In this document: one piece after another, positions 1 through 40,493 of the stretch
How the letters are laid out: each line of letters begins with the position of its first letter
How positions within the stretch are numbered: position 1 is the stretch's first letter
NCBI GenBank assembly: GCA_000697455.1
Contig: JNET01031755.1
Location: 1-40,493 of the forward strand
Direction: 5' to 3'
DNA length: 40,493 bases
Source of the DNA: Basidiobolus heterosporus B8920
Taxonomy: Eukaryota > Basidiobolomycota > Basidiobolomycetes > Basidiobolales > Basidiobolaceae
Made by a program: the position numbers and the translations under genes
Notes under the pieces: generated by a model
What the model was told of the DNA's origin: nothing
What the model saw: the letters and a program-made list of their open reading frames with translations, nothing else
Databases searched by the model: none

Positions 1-2573
1 AGTGTCGAATTTACCGGATTGGCATGGACGTACAAATCATGATACCCATGAGTATTACACATTGAAGCTGAATTCACAAAGCGTGCCTCCTTTAGATATT
101 GCTACCTTACTTGGTCTAGAATACGTTGGTGATATTAGTCACGTAGGAGACTATCATCTATTTTCAACACCAAAAAACGCCATACATATCCATGGTTCAG
201 TAGAAAAGCTTTTTGCACAGTTGAAGGAAGACCATGCCTTTGGAAAATTGAAAAAACGTGAGCTACATGTGTTTAGTCAAGTAGAAAGCCAACTTCAAAA
301 GCACTCGCTTAGAAAGCGAGTAAAGCGCCTTGTGCCAGCACCTCCTCCTCCAACTGCAACGGAAGTTTCAACAGCAAACCCTCAAAATATTACCGCCAAA
401 TCGATCGCGGATTCTTTTGGCTTTCGTGATCCCGGATTTCCTGCACAGTGGCATCTCTTTAACGACCAGACTTTGGGAAATGATATGAACATTACTGATG
501 TATGGCGCCAAGGTTAGTCCGAAGATTCGATAAATGATTCAAGTGGTTACGCCTTCGCTAAGTCTTTATCAATTCTCTAGGCATAATTGGCAAAAACGTA
601 GTAGTAGCACTATTAGATGATGGCTTAGATATGAATAGTGAAGATCTTAAACCCAATTATGTAAGTTGTGTATGATGTCTTCAATATTTGAACAATGTAA
701 ACTTACCTGCAAATGCTGACGGAGTAGTTTGCTGAGGGCTCTTATGATTTCAACGACCATGTCGCTGAGCCTAAACCGAAGTTATTTGATGATTATCATG
801 GAACTCGTTGCGCTGGTGAGATTGCAGCTGCTAATAATACAGCCTGTGGCATTGGTGTAGCGTATGGTGCTAAAGTCGCGGGTATAGCCAATAATTCTTT
901 AAGCTGTAGATTTTCCCAACTTATTATAACATTGTTAATGTTGTTAGGGGTCCGTATTCTTTCGGGAGAAATAAGTGATGTTGACGAGGCTTTAGCTTTG
1001 GTTTATCATAATCAAGAAAACCACATTTTTTCATGCAGTTGGGGGCCTCCTGATGATGGACAATCTATGGAAGCACCTAGCGAGCTTATTCATAGTGCTA
1101 TGGTAAAAGGCATTAATGAGGGACGCGGCGGAAAAGGTAGTATATTTGTATTTGCTACAGGCAATGGCGGCAGTTATGAGGACAATTGCAACTTCGATGG
1201 TTATACCAACAGTATATATACTGTCTCGATCGGTGCAGCGGATAGGAACAACGGCCACCCTTTTTATTCAGAGAAGTGCTCTGCTCAGTTGGCTGTTACG
1301 TATAGCAGCGGAGCTGCTGGTGCCGATTATATCTACACTACTGATGTTGGCAAGAACTCATGCACTAACCGACATGGAGGTACGTCAGCAGCTGCGCCTT
1401 TGGCCGCCGGTCTCTTTGCGCTTGTACTCTCGATACGCCCTGAACTTCACTGGCGAGATATTCAACATCTTGCGGTGAACACTGCGATCCCCATTGCCTT
1501 GGATGATGATGATTGGAAAGAGACAGCTGCTGGTCGTAAGTTCAACCATAAATATGGCTATGGTAAGCTGGACGCTTATCGTTTGATCGAAGCAGCAAAA
1601 GTATACAAATCCGTCGCACCACAAGTTCAATTAACTTCTGACGTGATTAACGTTAACCAAAGTATTCCTTCTGATCCTTACGGGTTGAACAGTTCTTTTA
1701 CGGTCTCTGAAGAGCATATGAAAAAACAAGCATTTGGAAAATTGGAGCACATCACTGTTAAGCTGAATGTTGAGCATCAACGACGCGGTGATGTTATTGT
1801 ACATTTAATCTCCCCGAATAATGTTACATCAGAGCTGTCACCTGGTAGAAAATATGATGAGAGCACTGAGGGGTTTCAGAATTGGACTTTTATGACCGTC
1901 AAGCATTGGTAAGTTGTAGAATTCTGTTTTTGTGTTTATACTAGAAAAATATTGACTTTTCTCAAGGGATGAACTACCAGCAGGCGAATGGACTCTTCGC
2001 ATCATAGATCGAGAAAACCCTGATAAAACGGGCACGTTCGTCAATTGGGCTATTAATTTCTTTGGATCTAAAGCTGAGCTTCCTTCCAAACCCATATCTA
2101 CTGAGACACGCTCAGCAGCAGTCCCAACACGGCACTCTGAAAACGAGCCGGATAATCTCGAAATACCAGTTCACTCAACTCCAAATGCCATATTGTATAG
2201 CATACTTGGTATCTTCGGAACTATCAGTATAGTTGTAGCAGCATTTTTGGTTCATAGGCGTTATGTTCGGAATCAAGGCACGCGGGAATCATACGAGTTT
2301 GATACCATTGTGCCTGTTAGTGCAAATCAGACGCCGCGAGTTGGGATCTTTGAGCAGGCGCGTAGATACTTCAAACCAAGTCACGATACTGAAGATTCAC
2401 AAGATGCTCTGTTGGGCAACAAAAATGAAAGCGATATCAACGCAATGTCAGCGTTTGTAGACGTAGAGATGACATCTACGGTTGGTGAACAAACAGGCTT
2501 CGAAATTGGAGATACTAGCGATGATGAATTGGGCGAACATAGTAGAAAGAGTTTCAATTCAGAAAGTGAGTAA
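1..2573 (+). CDS. KEX2: Kexin-like (Kex2-type) prohormone-processing protease, copy A, 5' end off the window
   Basis: Membrane-bound subtilisin-family protease that cleaves secretory proproteins after dibasic sites in the late Golgi. Exons 2-512, 581-660, 728-881, 948-1908 and 1967-2573 join in frame to 770 visible residues. The start and signal peptide lie upstream: the frame is open at base 2 and copy B has about 40 more N-terminal residues. Seen in order: a propeptide ending near RKRVKR (likely autocleavage), catalytic Asp in ALLDDGLD, His in [10 protein letters not shown], oxyanion Asn in FATGNGG, Ser in HGGTSAAAP, a P domain ending in NWAINFFG, one membrane segment (about 2190-2255) and an acidic cytosolic tail. 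The tail carries YEFDTI (2292-2309), close to the Tyr-based Golgi-retention signal known in yeast Kex2. All catalytic residues are intact, so I infer an active enzyme. A paralog lies inverted at 22027-24603. Confidence 0.93.
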
Positions 2574-22026: not shown

Positions 22027-24603
22027 CTAAAGATCCACACTGAAGTCACTATCGGAGCTTTCTGACGACTCACTGCTTTCGGAAGATACAGAAGATAAAT
22101 CCGATTCAGAGGAGCTGGTGTCAAAAGAAATACTTGAAAGTGGAATCCCTTCCATTCCGTCTGCATCAAAATCGATTATAGATTCAGACTCCACCTCCAC
22201 CTCCGCATCCGCCTCTGCTTCCTCGTTATGTAGTGCTATATATGTATCTCTAGTCTCCGGATTGACTTCACGTAACCGATATGCTGAAGCAACAACAAGA
22301 AGTGTTACGGATCCTACTAGACCTATTATGGAATATAAACCACGTTTTGTAGGATTTGGGGGTAAAACATCGGGGTTTGTGGCGATATCTGAGACTTCAG
22401 TATCCCCTGAGCGTTCTATAACTGGTTCATACTTGGCACCGAAGAAATTTAAGGCCCAAGAATGCAGTGTCCCTACTTTTTCAGGGTTTTGGTTGTCTTT
22501 GACAAGAAGTGTCCAAGTGCCTACAACTGGCTCATCCCTAAAAGTATTGATTAGAGCAGTAAAGATGAGTGCGGAGTGAGATTAGCTTACCAGTGTTTGA
22601 CCGACATGAAAGTCCAGTTTTTAAACCCCTCTTCGCTTCTGTCAAGTGGACGGCCTGGTGATAGCACTGAGGTCACGTTGTTTGGTGATGTGAGATAAAC
22701 TTCAACATCCCCGCGTAGTTGGTGAGATATGTCCACAACAACCGTAACATGCTCTAACAGATTCAACGAATGATTTTGTGCCACTTCGGTCGACACAGTA
22801 AATGCTTGGCTAATGCCAGCACTATCTGATGGGATTGGTAGCTCCACCTTTAGCAACCCTGTGCTAAATTGAACTTGCGGCCCAACAGAGTCGTACTTTT
22901 TGGAAGCTTCGATAAGTTCATAAGCATCAAGCTTCCCAAAACCGTATTTGTGATTGAACTGTCGTCCAGAAGCAGTATATCGCCAGTCAGAATCATTAAG
23001 CGAAAATGGCTTAGCAGAACGAACGGTTAGGTGCTGGATATCTCGCCAGTGAAGATCAGGCCGGATTGACAGCACAAGTGCAAACAAACCAGCAGCTAAC
23101 GGTGCAGCTGCAGAAGTACCACCATGGGCATTTGTACACGCGTCTTTGCCCACATCTGTAGTGTACTACATCAAAAGGATTAGCTTTAGGTTTCGGAAAA
23201 CAAGTTGGAGAAATATTTACAATTCCATTGCCATTCATGTTGCTACTATATGTAACTGCCAATTGGGCTGAGCATTGTTCGGAGTAATTCGGCAGTTGAT
23301 CAAAGCGGTCAATAGCCCCGATAGACGCTGTATATATACTATTGGCGTATCCGTCGAAATTACAGTTATCGACGTTTCCTCCGTTTCCAGTGGCAAATAC
23401 ATAGATACTACCTTTTCCACCTCGTCCACTGGTAACTCCGGAAATAAGAGCATCGTGAATGATTTTGCTGGGACCTTCCATTGCAGAGCCATCGTCCGGG
23501 GGACCCCAACTACATGAATAGATGTGATTTTTTTGGTTTTCGTAAACCAAAGCTAGTGCTTCATCTAAATCACTAACTATGTCCGAAAGAATGCGAATTC
23601 CTATCAATGGTCTTGAGTTGTTGGCAACCAATTATCCGAAATCATGAAAGGGTATTACCGGAAACCTTAGAGCCAAATGCGACACCCACTCCGCAAACAC
23701 TATTGTTAGCGGCTGCGATTTCGCCGGCACATCTTGTTCCATGATAATCATCGACAAGTTTAGGCTTGGGCACACTAGAGCGATCATTGAAATCATACGA
23801 TCCTTCAGGAAACTTCAATAGTTGATTAATACACAAGTGCATTCATTTAGATGTTTCGTCACAAGTACGCACATAGTTGGCCTTTAAATCTTCGCTATCC
23901 ATATCCAATCCATCATCCAATAGTGCAACTACCACATTCTCTCCGAAAATACCTGGAATTGAAGAAGTTGGCTATTGAGGGCACTGTCAAGCTTCAGTTG
24001 AAAGGGTCAACTTACCTTGCTGCCACACTTTTAGAATATTCAAGTCATGACCCAAGTTCTCCTCGTTATGCTAAAAGGATTCTCAGTACGGTATAAGCAT
24101 TATTCTTGAATTGATAAAATGAAGAAGGATATGCATAGAAGCAAACTCACCAGATGCCATTGTTTTGGAAACCCGGGGTCTTGTATTTCGGCTGTGTCAA
24201 ACACCTGTTTTATTTGGGAGTTGTTATGGTTTTGTGGTTGTGGAATAGGACCTCTCTTAATTCGCTTTCGAAATGATTCCTTATAGATGTGTTGGATGTA
24301 GTTTGGCATAGAATTGTCTCGTTTCCTAAGCGTCTCATTACGAAGCATTTCTTCGAATAGGTCTTCTGAAGAAGCCTCAATTCCAGGCATAGAAAACAGA
24401 TGGTATCCATCTAGATTGTCTAGTCTTCCTACGTAGTTAATTCCAAGTTGTTTCGATATCACTTGCGGTGTGACTGAATCGGGTATCTGAATCGCGTAGT
24501 GGCTGTGTGCATGATTTCGAGTGCTGTACCAGAGAGGTAAGGACCCATCAACAGTACCTGAGTATAAGGCATGTAGAAACAGGATTGTATTTAGTTGCCA
24601 CAT
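22027..24603 (-). CDS. KEX2: Kexin-like (Kex2-type) protease, copy B
   Basis: Second dibasic-specific secretory protease, paralogous to the gene at the window start and inverted relative to it. Exons (minus): 24603-24151, 24070-24016, 23952-23873, 23812-23659, 23600-23221, 23165-22591, 22537-22027; 735 residues. Start chosen at [16 protein letters not shown], a good signal peptide; an ATG 12 codons upstream is less fitting. Propeptide ends near RKRIKR. Catalytic Asp (ALLDDGLD), His ([10 protein letters not shown]), Asn (FATGNGG) and Ser (HGGTSAAAP) are all kept, with P domain (WALNFFG), one membrane segment ([20 protein letters not shown]) and a short tail. Four introns match copy A in place and phase; those after QWHL (24071-24150) and before YTTDVG (23166-23220) are only here. 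The tail is acidic and Ser-rich and lacks YEFDTI, having DTYIAL instead, so location may differ. Confidence 0.93.
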
Positions 24604-34929: not shown

Positions 34930-37768
34930 TCAATGTCCCATGTGTATCTTGATTTCTTCCACTTCTACTCTTCGCTCACTTGGTGGCTGGGGTACTGAGA
35001 CATTCGGTTGATATGATGGGTGTCTGTGCCAGTTCTGAGTGATACAACTCAGCGCATCGCGAATACTCAGATGCAAGTACCGATGATCATCCTCAGGTCC
35101 ATCGTCTGGATGCTTCGTAATGCCTGAAGGTTCAATACGTCTGAGTACGTTCGATTTCAGTCCAACAAAGTGCAACTCAAATCCATGGTTCCCTGCATAG
35201 TTGCTCAGTTGCACCTTCAGGTCAAGCAGCCATTGCAGACCGGCAAAGTCCACATGGTTTACACTACTGAAGTCCAAGACCACAGCACGAAGGACAGGGA
35301 AGCGCGGTTCATCGGCCTGCTTCTCTTGCGTCTCACTTCTCCCGATTGTTTGCGTGTTGAGGCTATTGTGCGTCAGTTTCTCCTGGTCCTCATTTGGTCT
35401 TGGGAATGCATTGAGTGGAAGTCGTGGTAACAGGAAGTTTCGTATCCGCTGAATGCGGAGGTCCCGATCATCGGACCAATTCTTCTCAGCCCATGATTTC
35501 TCCGACTTTTCAGCAGGATCGGTAGCGACATAGGCGGCATTGAGCACCTTGTTCTTGAAGTACTCCCCATTCAAGAATGTGATCGACTCGGAGAACCGGA
35601 AGATCACCACTCCTGGGGGTGCTGGATACGTCGCCCAGTCACTGGACCACCGGTCTACATAGATATCCGAGTCATCCACTGCTTGACCTAGCATCTGCCA
35701 TTTTGGTCGAGCAATCCTGTGAAGACTGATGATTAGCGAGAACCCCGCGGCAACCCCGATGCCAGTCTGAATGTTTGTGAAAACGGTGAGAAGGAAGGCT
35801 AGTAGACAGGCGACCATGTCAGTTCCTAGAAATGGAGAGTGAGAGATTGGTCAGTGTGGTTTGGTGGTAGATGGTGGATTGCGTCGACACGGTCAATGAG
35901 GGTTATTGGGCCACGGTTGTCCACAAAGTATTACTTACTCTGGATCTTCCATAGCTCCCGGTACATCTTGTAGTCGTAGATCAAGGGCATGATGCTCACG
36001 ATGATCACAGCTGCCAGTGTCGCCTTGGGCACATAGTACATCACCGGTGGCAAGAAGTTCATGCTAAGCATCACAATGATGCTGGTGAGGATTCCACTTC
36101 CCGGAGTCTTGACCCCTGACTGTGAAATCACCGCAGAGCGGGACAACCCGCCCGTTACCGGATATGCCCGGAAGAATGAGTTTGACAAGTTGCATATGCC
36201 CACTGCAACCATCTCCTGGCTACTGTCCACCTTGTAATGGCTTTGTCGGGCTATGGAAGTTGAGATGATACAAATGGTTAGTAAGTTCTGATCACCTCGT
36301 GTGTGGGCGATGAGTTAGGTGATGGGGAAAGAGAGGTGCCAATTTCCCAGAGATTCGGATTAAATGCTCATGTACACATGTATGTATGTACGCGTATGTA
36401 TGTATGTATGCATATATATGCACATAGGCTTGTTCAGTCACACTTTCCACAGTTTCACTTATCATCCCCATCCTCTCTCTGGCATATCCTCACTCTCACT
36501 CTCACTCTCACCCCCATCACACCACCCAGCTCATTTGTTGGATGCTTCACAAGGACTTACCATATGTCCTGGCACCGGAAATATGCTCAATAATCGCCAC
36601 AAGTACACCCACGGCCGATGGGGTGATCACCTCTGATAAGAAGCCACTGTCCAGACGAGGGATACTCGGCTTCGGAAACCCTTCTGGAATCTTGCCCAAC
36701 ACCGTGACAACCCCGCTACCCCGAGCCTTGGACACAATGAAGGCGATCAGAGTGTACGCAATGACCACAATGGCACTACGTCCAATCCCCACCATCTTTA
36801 CTGCTGGATGAAGATAGCTGAATCTGGCCGCGAGTCGTTTCAGCAGCATCATCATGGCTATTCCACTGAATCCAATCAGCGCGTCCTGCCAGCGAGTTCT
36901 GCTCAGTGCACTGATGATCGCCTTGAGTACATCTACGAGTGGCCCTTGGGCCTTTACTCCAGCCAACCCTAGAAGTGAGGGGACCTAAGGAGGGGACAGA
37001 GTAAACTGGGGTCAGTATGGTGTGTCTTACCGATACACGACGTCACTCATCTGTGACTTTGCTATTGGGCAAGCAACCTGACCGTTTACTTACTTGACTG
37101 AAGAAGATTGTTACTGCTGCTCCTGCGGTGAACCCTTTCGTCACCGGAATCGATATCAGATCAAGGATGATTCCCAGCTTCAAAACACCCAAACCGATCA
37201 TGAAACATCCCATCAGAAATGATATGGCGGTCACACACTCAATTGGGTCTAGTCCTCTGGCCACCAAAGATTCCAGCGTGATGCCAATGTACAAGGACAA
37301 CACCGCTGACGGGCCAATCGAGATGTCCTTGGTGGTACCGAAGAAACAGTATATGGCGGTCCCCACAAAGCACGAGTAGAGTCCATATTGCAGAGGGACC
37401 GTGGCTAGTTGGGCATACGCAAGGGCCTATATTCCGTACATTGGGTAAGTTGTGTTGGTCAGTCAGTTAATTAGTCGGGTGATCACTACGTGCACACAAT
37501 ACAGTATAGTACTCGTTGTGAGAGCACTTCAGCTGAAATGCTGCCTCACGCTGAATACGGGAAGTGATGAGTTGTTGTGCACGAACACACATACCTGAGG
37601 GACAATCAGAATGCCAATAGTGATGCCGGCGATCAAATCACCAATCAACCACTTCTTGTTGTAGTGTGGAACCCATGTGATGAACGGAATATGACGCTTA
37701 ACGATGCTGCCTAAGCTGAATTCTCTGGTCTCGGTGATTTCTTGAATAAACTCGGGTACTCTGATCAT
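34930..37768 (-). CDS. SUL1: SulP-family sulfate permease, copy 1
   Basis: Predicted plasma-membrane sulfate importer. Exons (minus): 37768-37595, 37426-37094, 36984-36561, 36250-35939, 35825-34930; 712 residues, all phases consistent. Seen: N-terminal PEFIQEITETREFSLGSIVK; the SulP core (ALAYAQLATVPLQYGLYSCF, FGTTKDISIGPSAVLSL); about ten or more hydrophobic segments; the conserved SFFRAYPVTGGLSRSAV segment; and a C-terminal STAS domain (about 440-690; FPVLRAVVLDFSSVNHVDFA) with a roughly 60-residue hydrophilic insert. Exons are much richer in G+C than neighbouring genes and introns are long (168, 109, 310 and 113 bp against 53-83 bp elsewhere), which suggests a different history. From codon 9 into exon 4 the gene is identical to copy 2. 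The family also includes other anion carriers, so sulfate is the likely but unproven substrate. Confidence 0.92.
36207..37744. repeat. Left arm of a perfect inverted repeat
   Basis: Base x here pairs with base 76700-x in the right arm. I compared introns 1 and 2, parts of intron 3, the exon 4 start and multi-frame translations and found no difference. The inner boundary is the third base of codon 8 of the permease gene; the outer boundary is set only by the window end, so the arm may be longer. Confidence 0.95.
36371..36511. repeat. Microsatellite pair inside permease intron 3 (left copy)
   Basis: The 310-bp third intron holds a TATG-type tetranucleotide run (about 36379-36410, followed by CATATATATG) and a CTCACT run (36490-36511). 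Such tracts normally change length fast. Confidence 0.85.
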
Positions 37769-38931
37769 TTAGTGAATTTACTTGGGTTAATAACAATTCA
37801 GATGTCTTTAAAGTGAGTCTTCTCCAAATCGAGTACTTCAACCTCGAAAGATCTCAATAGAAGGAGATATGCACATTTAAATGTTAATGGGGTCATTTAT
37901 ATACCTAGAAGCGGTGCAGTTTTTTCCTGGAATTTTTAGGTTTATTTCTATCATAGTCAGTGCTTCGTTCACCGTTTCGAAGTCTGGAGTAATTACCAGA
38001 CTACCAGTTAGGCAGCACCCCTTAGTGTAACCAGAATCCACCTCCTTTAACTAGCTCTGTTCTAATTGAAAACTAGTCTTGACTTACTTAGTAGATTTGA
38101 TCCTAACAGTAAAACTCCTACGAGGTTGAAACAAAAAAGCTTCATATAATATTTTGATTGGATTTCTATTACAAATGGAGATCCATCCGCACTAAATCCA
38201 AAATGTCATTTAAGTTCTAGTCCTTATTCAACGGAAACCTCGTGATTAGTTTAGGGGATTGGAGTATGAAATCTCCTCGATTTATTTGAGATTGTCTAGT
38301 GGACGAATCTAGTTGTGGGGTGTAAGACATCACCATATAATAGTTTGAAATGTAAGAACGAGTACCAGCAATTATCTACAAGAGATGATTTTTCACTTGA
38401 ACGGTATGTAACTTGATCTTGGGTCAATTAACAAGAATTAGGGTTAAATCAATTCCCATAGAAAATTGCTTACAAACGACTGAATCCATCACTTTCACTG
38501 GTTTAATTCAGGTTAATTTTGTATAGGTCTCATCGTAACAATGTTGAGATTATTTAGACTATAGAAAGGTATAAAGTGAACCGCTATGGATTAAGGGCAT
38601 ATTCCAGTAGTTAACAGAACTAGTTCAAATAAAAGAAACAATCTCATAAATGTTAAGGGGAATTCCTTAACAGGCTGTTAGCCCAAAGTAAGACCACATA
38701 TTCCTATGTCTAAACCGAATTTCTAATTAATCAATATCAAATATGATAGACATAATTTCAGGTACTTACAAGTTTATGTACCTCAGAAATTCGATGCTAC
38801 TAACTCTACGAGAATAAATACTCGCAAGATTGTCTACTTCTTGTCACCGGTTGGTTTGTCTCCAGATTACATTGTTACTTTCACACCTGAGTATCAAAGC
38901 AATCTCTCCCTTTCATAACTATCGGCCTAAC
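37769..38931. promoter_or_regulatory. Spacer between the divergent permease copies (bidirectional promoter region)
   Basis: 1163 bp, AT-rich, with no open frame worth reporting. The two halves show no inverted similarity to each other, so the copies have unrelated upstream regions. No CACGTG site, the usual Cbf1 element of fungal sulfur genes, is present. Confidence 0.6.
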
Positions 38932-40493
38932 ATGCTCAAGGTACCAGAATTTATCCAAGAAATCACCGAGACCAGAGAATTCAGCTTAGGCAGCATCGTT
39001 AAGCGTCATATTCCGTTCATCACATGGGTTCCACACTACAACAAGAAGTGGTTGATTGGTGATTTGATCGCCGGCATCACTATTGGCATTCTGATTGTCC
39101 CTCAGGTATGTGTGTTCGTGCACAACAACTCATCACTTCCCGTATTCAGCGTGAGGCAGCATTTCAGCTGAAGTGCTCTCACAACGAGTACTATACTGTA
39201 TTGTGTGCACGTAGTGATCACCCGACTAATTAACTGACTGACCAACACAACTTACCCAATGTACGGAATATAGGCCCTTGCGTATGCCCAACTAGCCACG
39301 GTCCCTCTGCAATATGGACTCTACTCGTGCTTTGTGGGGACCGCCATATACTGTTTCTTCGGTACCACCAAGGACATCTCGATTGGCCCGTCAGCGGTGT
39401 TGTCCTTGTACATTGGCATCACGCTGGAATCTTTGGTGGCCAGAGGACTAGACCCAATTGAGTGTGTGACCGCCATATCATTTCTGATGGGATGTTTCAT
39501 GATCGGTTTGGGTGTTTTGAAGCTGGGAATCATCCTTGATCTGATATCGATTCCGGTGACGAAAGGGTTCACCGCAGGAGCAGCAGTAACAATCTTCTTC
39601 AGTCAAGTAAGTAAACGGTCAGGTTGCTTGCCCAATAGCAAAGTCACAGATGAGTGACGTCGTGTATCGGTAAGACACACCATACTGACCCCAGTTTACT
39701 CTGTCCCCTCCTTAGGTCCCCTCACTTCTAGGGTTGGCTGGAGTAAAGGCCCAAGGGCCACTCGTAGATGTACTCAAGGCGATCATCAGTGCACTGAGCA
39801 GAACTCGCTGGCAGGACGCGCTGATTGGATTCAGTGGAATAGCCATGATGATGCTGCTGAAACGACTCGCGGCCAGATTCAGCTATCTTCATCCAGCAGT
39901 AAAGATGGTGGGGATTGGACGTAGTGCCATTGTGGTCATTGCGTACACTCTGATCGCCTTCATTGTGTCCAAGGCTCGGGGTAGCGGGGTTGTCACGGTG
40001 TTGGGCAAGATTCCAGAAGGGTTTCCGAAGCCGAGTATCCCTCGTCTGGACAGTGGCTTCTTATCAGAGGTGATCACCCCATCGGCCGTGGGTGTACTTG
40101 TGGCGATTATTGAGCATATTTCCGGTGCCAGGACATATGGTAAGTCCTTGTGAAGCATCCAACAAATGAGCTGGGTGGTGTGATGGGGGTGAGAGTGAGA
40201 GTGAGAGTGAGGATATGCCAGAGAGAGGATGGGGATGATAAGTGAAACTGTGGAAAGTGTGACTGAACAAGCCTATGTGCATATATATGCATACATACAT
40301 ACATACGCGTACATACATACATGTGTACATGAGCATTTAATCCGAATCTCTGGGAAATTGGCACCTCTCTTTCCCCATCACCTAACTCATCGCCCACACA
40401 CGAGGTGATCAGAACTTACTAACCATTTGTATCATCTCAACTTCCATAGCCCGACAAAGCCATTACAAGGTGGACAGTAGCCAGGAGATGGTT
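38932..40493 (+). CDS. SUL1: SulP-family sulfate permease, copy 2, 3' end off the window
   Basis: Divergent partner of copy 1. Exons 38932-39105, 39274-39606, 39716-40139 and 40450 onward mirror those of copy 1 exactly, giving 325 visible residues before the window ends in exon 4; the rest of the transporter core and the STAS domain must lie beyond. It starts MLKVPEFIQ against MIRVPEFIQ in copy 1: two conservative changes and three silent changes in the first eight codons, then none. The first in-frame ATG is the one used; the frame is open upstream without another ATG. Upstream DNA is unrelated to that of copy 1, so expression may differ although the visible proteins are nearly the same. Confidence 0.9.
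38956..40493. repeat. Right arm of a perfect inverted repeat
   Basis: Mirror of the left arm, reaching the last base of the window. It covers most of exon 1, introns 1-3, exons 2-3 and the start of exon 4 of permease copy 2. Confidence 0.95.
40189..40329. repeat. Microsatellite pair inside permease intron 3 (right copy)
   Basis: Same GAGTGA-type and CATA-type runs as in the left arm, with the same repeat numbers. Confidence 0.85.

Follow-up and report, generated by a model that had tools for sequence, protein, structure and literature searches.

Two inverted sulfate permease paralogs in Basidiobolus heterosporus, probably homogenized by ectopic gene conversion

Permease genes at the contig end

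The window, 40,493 nucleotides (nt) of Basidiobolus heterosporus B8920, is one entire contig (C213) and ends within a sulfate permease gene (copy B) that lies head to head with a second, complete one (copy A). Copy A encodes a Sulfate_transp domain (PF00916, residues 41 to 423, 335.9 bits) followed by a C-terminal STAS domain (PF01740, residues 483 to 652, 41.6 bits), both above cut-off, and this domain order predicts a SulP/SLC26-type sulfate permease. To find the remainder of copy B, we used the remaining part of gene A as a query against the assembly, which comprises 428 contigs and 8,137,145 bases. A second copy was located at the very start of another contig, C83, where positions 1 to 836 (836 nt) are identical to copy A (window 35790 to 34955). 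The frame and orientation of this sequence fit copy B, and it is most likely the missing 3' end of that gene, with 416 nt unassembled between the two contigs. Two 5' and two 3' ends of the gene are present in the contigs searched, and their pairing depends on the assembler's path across the 2.8-kb repeat. The features are as follows.

~377-2078, plus strand, and ~22426-24231, minus strand: two inverted S8 protease genes, kexin-like (Peptidase_S8 and P_proprotein)
34930..37768, minus strand: copy A, complete sulfate permease gene, 712 amino acids
37768-37595, 37426-37094, 36984-36561, 36250-35939, and 35825-34930, minus strand: the five exons of copy A, joined by reading frame and GT..AG sites
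34930..34954, minus strand: diverged 3' margin of copy A, the final 25 nt of the open reading frame (ORF) with stop TGA, 5 mismatches to C83
34955..37744, minus strand: putative homogenized block of 2790 nt, given in the coordinates of copy A, of which 2374 nt can be compared with copy B (0 differences)
35791..36206, minus strand: stretch of copy A lacking an assembled second copy, 416 nt
37745..37768, minus strand: diverged 5' margin of copy A, covering ORF positions 1 to 24, with 6 mismatches to copy B
37769..38931, no strand: unique spacer of 1163 nt (35.1% G+C) containing both divergent 5' flanks, which are promoters by position
38932..38955, plus strand: 5' diverged edge of copy B
38932..40493, plus strand: 5' part of copy B (exons 1 to 3 and the beginning of exon 4), truncated where the contig ends
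38956..40493, plus strand: putative homogenized block of copy B, the 1538 nt that lie in the window
C83:1-861 (locus L013): probable 3' part of copy B, assigned by its match to the rest of gene A, frame, and orientation

Further sulfate permease genes lie on at least C92, C381, C215, C2, and C338. An unconverted paralog (paralog C, locus L014) carries introns at the same four protein places as copy A; these measure 63, 59, 61, and 64 nt, versus 168, 109, 310, and 113 nt in copy A, and intron 3 of copy A contains short simple repeats.

Among the best 120 matches listed, after scoring of the 7997 candidates sharing most words with the permease, its best relatives are Basidiobolus proteins. A PPR protein of the same contig has 77% identity to a B. 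meristosporus protein and 74% to a B. ranarum protein. The permease locus seems to be syntenic in other Basidiobolus, as judged from the proteins compared: the longest contig is 115,344 bases for both P0003 and P0131 of B. meristosporus CBS 931.73 and 48,756 bases for both P0002 and P0132 of B. ranarum, and equal size was taken to mean the same contig. We also considered whether P0003 (B. meristosporus K493DRAFT_181305) is itself a conversion mosaic. It matches copy A at 91 of 91 residues in early exon 5 and at 344 of 391 upstream; this candidate was rejected, as 14 other pairs are 82 to 98% identical in that stretch and constraint may explain the match. The cluster containing P0003 comprises two sequences from a single contig, perhaps a sign that it carries a second, nearly identical copy.

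All 20 contigs that we sampled from the 428 exceed 10 kb (range, 10,174 to 45,975 bases), a pattern suggestive of a larger assembly filtered by length. Two Basidiobolus assemblies built from Illumina data with MaSuRCA have been published (PMC4961843, PMC7466969). A dispersed repeat of ~425 nt, with 87 to 96% identity across contigs, occurs at L028:1-423, L033:704-1126, L035:6368-6792, and L034:5441-5863. L028 starts inside this repeat, and L018 starts inside a different shared repeat.

Identical bodies and diverged edges

A repeat search of the window returned a single inverted pair, 36207-37768 and 38932-40493, of 1562 nt and reported as 100% identical. Comparison base by base revealed 6 differences over these 1562 positions, all within ORF positions 1 to 24, a placement with a probability of 6.7e-12 if differences were spread evenly. 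The first-pass annotation had described the arms as identical over 1538 bp, introns included, and this description holds: past ORF position 24, there are 0 differences in 1538 of 1538 positions. The first three introns of copy B (168, 109, and 310 nt; 587 nt in total) are identical to those of copy A; the fourth falls in the 416-nt unassembled gap, so that the intron comparison covers these three. Because the introns are identical as well, the identity cannot be attributed to selection on the protein.

The 5' edge differences occur at ORF positions 4, 8, 9, 15, 18, and 24, and they comprise two conservative codon changes (I/L and R/K) and three silent ones. The same five changes had been noted before, together with the statement that the first eight codons differ; the changes stand, but five of the eight codons differ rather than all of them. 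The 3' edge has 5 differences in the final 25 nt of the ORF, and the stop codons are TGA in copy A versus TAA on C83. Both edges are recognizably homologous. With a chance match of 27% assumed, matches after the ATG number 15 of 21 (P = 2.8e-5), and those at the 3' edge number at least 19 of 24 (P = 1.5e-7, computed with 19; the listed differences leave 20). The edges start at the ATG, finish at the stop codons, and keep the frame.

Beyond the coding sequence, similarity between the two 5' flanks in the 1163-nt spacer was not detected, with 78 of 200 shuffles scoring as high, in agreement with the earlier description of the upstream sequences as unrelated. The 3' flanks after the stop codons of copy A and C83 likewise have no clear similarity (16 of 200 shuffles score as high). 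The spacer itself is present once in the assembly contigs searched.

The two copies thus share an identical block of ~2.8 kb, bordered on each side by a coding edge that has diverged yet remains homologous, and two independent contigs (C213 and C83) each display one of these edges. Of the 2423 positions compared, the outermost 49 contain all 11 differences, a distribution with P = 7e-20 under even spreading. Divergence is 22% at the edges (11/49) versus at most 0.13% in the body (95% bound), the latter being measured on assembly sequence, whose consensus might hide rare differences between the arms.

Base composition of the permease

We compared the base composition of copy A with that of paralog C and of the surrounding DNA by Fisher tests that treat bases as independent. 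G+C at third codon positions (GC3) is 418/713 (0.586) in copy A versus 319/718 (0.444) in paralog C (P = 8.8e-8), and at fourfold sites, it is 0.569 versus 0.418 (P = 9.3e-5). The two genes are not different at first and second codon positions (GC1 and GC2). The introns of copy A are 45.6% G+C versus 38.5% in paralog C, which is not significant (P = 0.062). Against noncoding neighbors, the same introns exceed the spacer at 35.1% (P = 8e-6), the 3' flank of copy A at 34.2% (P = 2.5e-6), and, weakly, the 3' flank on C83 at 40.1% (P = 0.025).

At 49.5% G+C, the permease stretch is the highest of 312 windows of 2.8 kb (278 kb, C213 included; mean, 40.5; standard deviation, 2.9). None of 35 stop-to-stop ORFs of at least 250 amino acids reaches the GC3 of the whole permease coding sequence, two of the 35 being the permease's own last exon. 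The survey of introns (12 of 59 other intron candidates at ≤130 nt; mean GC, 0.38) serves as a loose guide, being noisy with overlapping and false candidates, some of them within the permease itself.

Raised GC3 and intron GC have been reported for mammalian gene pairs under conversion in the excerpted text of one study (PMC2720389). The raised GC3 of copy A and, less firmly, its intron GC agree with GC-biased conversion. Codon selection could account for part of the GC3 rise.

Origin of the identity and related systems

Since diverged homologous edges flank an identical middle, the pattern points to old paralogs that were overwritten rather than to a new duplication or a fold-back. We propose that ectopic gene conversion recently homogenized two old inverted sulfate permease paralogs along almost the full extent of their homology, and we assign this reading, drawn from sequence comparison, a probability of about 0.8. 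The starting state would have been two head-to-head paralogs with ~20% nucleotide divergence and unrelated 5' and 3' flanks. Non-reciprocal homologous recombination, probably intrachromosomal or between sister chromatids, would recently have made their bodies identical, and the inverted layout with its 1.16-kb spacer would help such conversion. Repair may have copied one gene over the other, stopping ~25 nt from each end, where homology ends. The raised GC suggests, more weakly, repeated GC-biased conversion rather than a single event. The first-pass annotation had already favored older paralogs homogenized by conversion. On this account, a second diverged coding edge is expected at the 3' end, and such an edge was found on C83, beyond the DNA on which that annotation was based.

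The strongest alternative, which we consider unlikely, is an assembly artifact in which one gene was folded back at the contig end or two diverged copies were collapsed. Copy B does break off twice within the repeat, where C213 ends and where C83 begins, and because the sampled contigs all exceed 10 kb, pieces may be missing. However, a fold-back, or a missed adapter, would not produce a unique spacer of 1163 nt together with edges that are diverged yet homologous, and it would not supply a different 3' flank for the second copy; the earlier remark that a simple fold-back fits poorly is supported by these features. Nor would collapse leave copies ~20% apart with 2374 identical positions in common, and no alternative true body of copy B was found in the contigs searched. 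As a further control, we examined the first 10 kb of 20 other contigs (of 428 in all), none of which contains an identical inverted repeat of >150 nt. The repeats that they do contain (>150 nt, ≥80% identity) are two inverted ones, the better of 357 nt at 97.8% and the other of 153 nt at 83.7%, and a direct one of 246 nt at 98.4%; none is identical. Homogenization is also not general on C213, as the S8 protease paralogs, ~20 kb apart, have diverged: they have 71 to 83% identity in patches and are not homogenized.

Somewhat less probable still is a third identical copy whose end lies on C83, with the 3' end of copy B elsewhere and three genes in conversion. The assembly leaves C213 and C83 unjoined across the 416-nt gap, and the contig set may be a subset; against this, exactly two 5' and two 3' ends were found, and C83 fits copy B in frame and orientation. 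A recent inverted duplication followed by fast change at both ends, with no gene conversion, would explain the identical gene bodies but is scarcely credible, since the flanks are unrelated on both sides while short coding margins are homologous, and we see no plausible cause for 49 coding nt to have changed by 22% when the adjacent 2374 nt, including introns, stayed the same.

Returning to ectopic conversion, a broader and rather doubtful proposal is that Basidiobolus has a standing conversion system, which would extend over all of the homologous gene to ~25 nt from its ends and raise GC, and in which crossovers between the arms would flip the 1.16-kb promoter spacer, repeatedly exchanging promoters and bodies.

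Conversion between linked inverted paralogs is known from other organisms. In the excerpted text of PMC3924832, the palindromic Drosophila Amylase pair (Amy-p/Amy-d) has coding regions homogenized within species and flanks that evolve independently, and Hsp70Aa/Hsp70Ab and Hsp70Ba/Hsp70Bb form tightly linked mirror-image pairs with ongoing ectopic conversion. As far as that excerpt goes, the permease pair resembles Amy in its linked inverted paralogs, homogenized coding regions, and independent flanks, and it resembles Hsp70 in its tight mirror-image layout. Whereas Amy is documented through orthologs and populations, the present pair is known from one fungal genome and a single species, but it has identical introns and both edges can be read to the base. 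Among mammalian genes, the available part of PMC2720389 describes homogenized exons and introns for BMP8A/B (an inverted pair), DDX19A/B, and TUBG1/2, with a GC3 rise that is not significant for Bmp8a/b. The permeases are similar in their homogenized exons and introns, and the GC3 of copy A exceeds that of paralog C; in contrast, the mammalian pairs covered there are 13 to 235 kb apart and converted over part of each gene, while the permeases are separated by 1.16 kb and homogenized over almost the whole ORF. What is new is a fungal pair with unusually legible edges, beside the known cases of Amy, Hsp70, and BMP8A/B. Our literature search found no work on gene conversion between Basidiobolus genes and none joining gene conversion, sulfate permease, and inverted repeat.

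The yeast gene SUL1 encodes a sulfate transporter, and origin-dependent inverted repeat amplification (ODIRA) creates new inverted copies that include flanks of the same origin. Inverted amplification of SUL1 is an ODIRA event according to the excerpted text of PMC10766183. In both systems, a sulfate transporter gene is present in inverted orientation more than once. The permease copies differ in being, on our reading, old paralogs with unrelated flanks; common flanking DNA, as left by ODIRA, was not found, since neither the 5' nor the 3' flanks have clear similarity.

Read as conversion, this locus would be a clean case of nearly whole-gene homogenization in an early-diverging fungus, in which both edges of the conversion tract can be read at single-base resolution. 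It would also give a measured distance, ~25 nt, at which conversion stopped before the end of ORF homology. Because of such homogenization, trees of sulfate permeases in Basidiobolus may mix paralogs.
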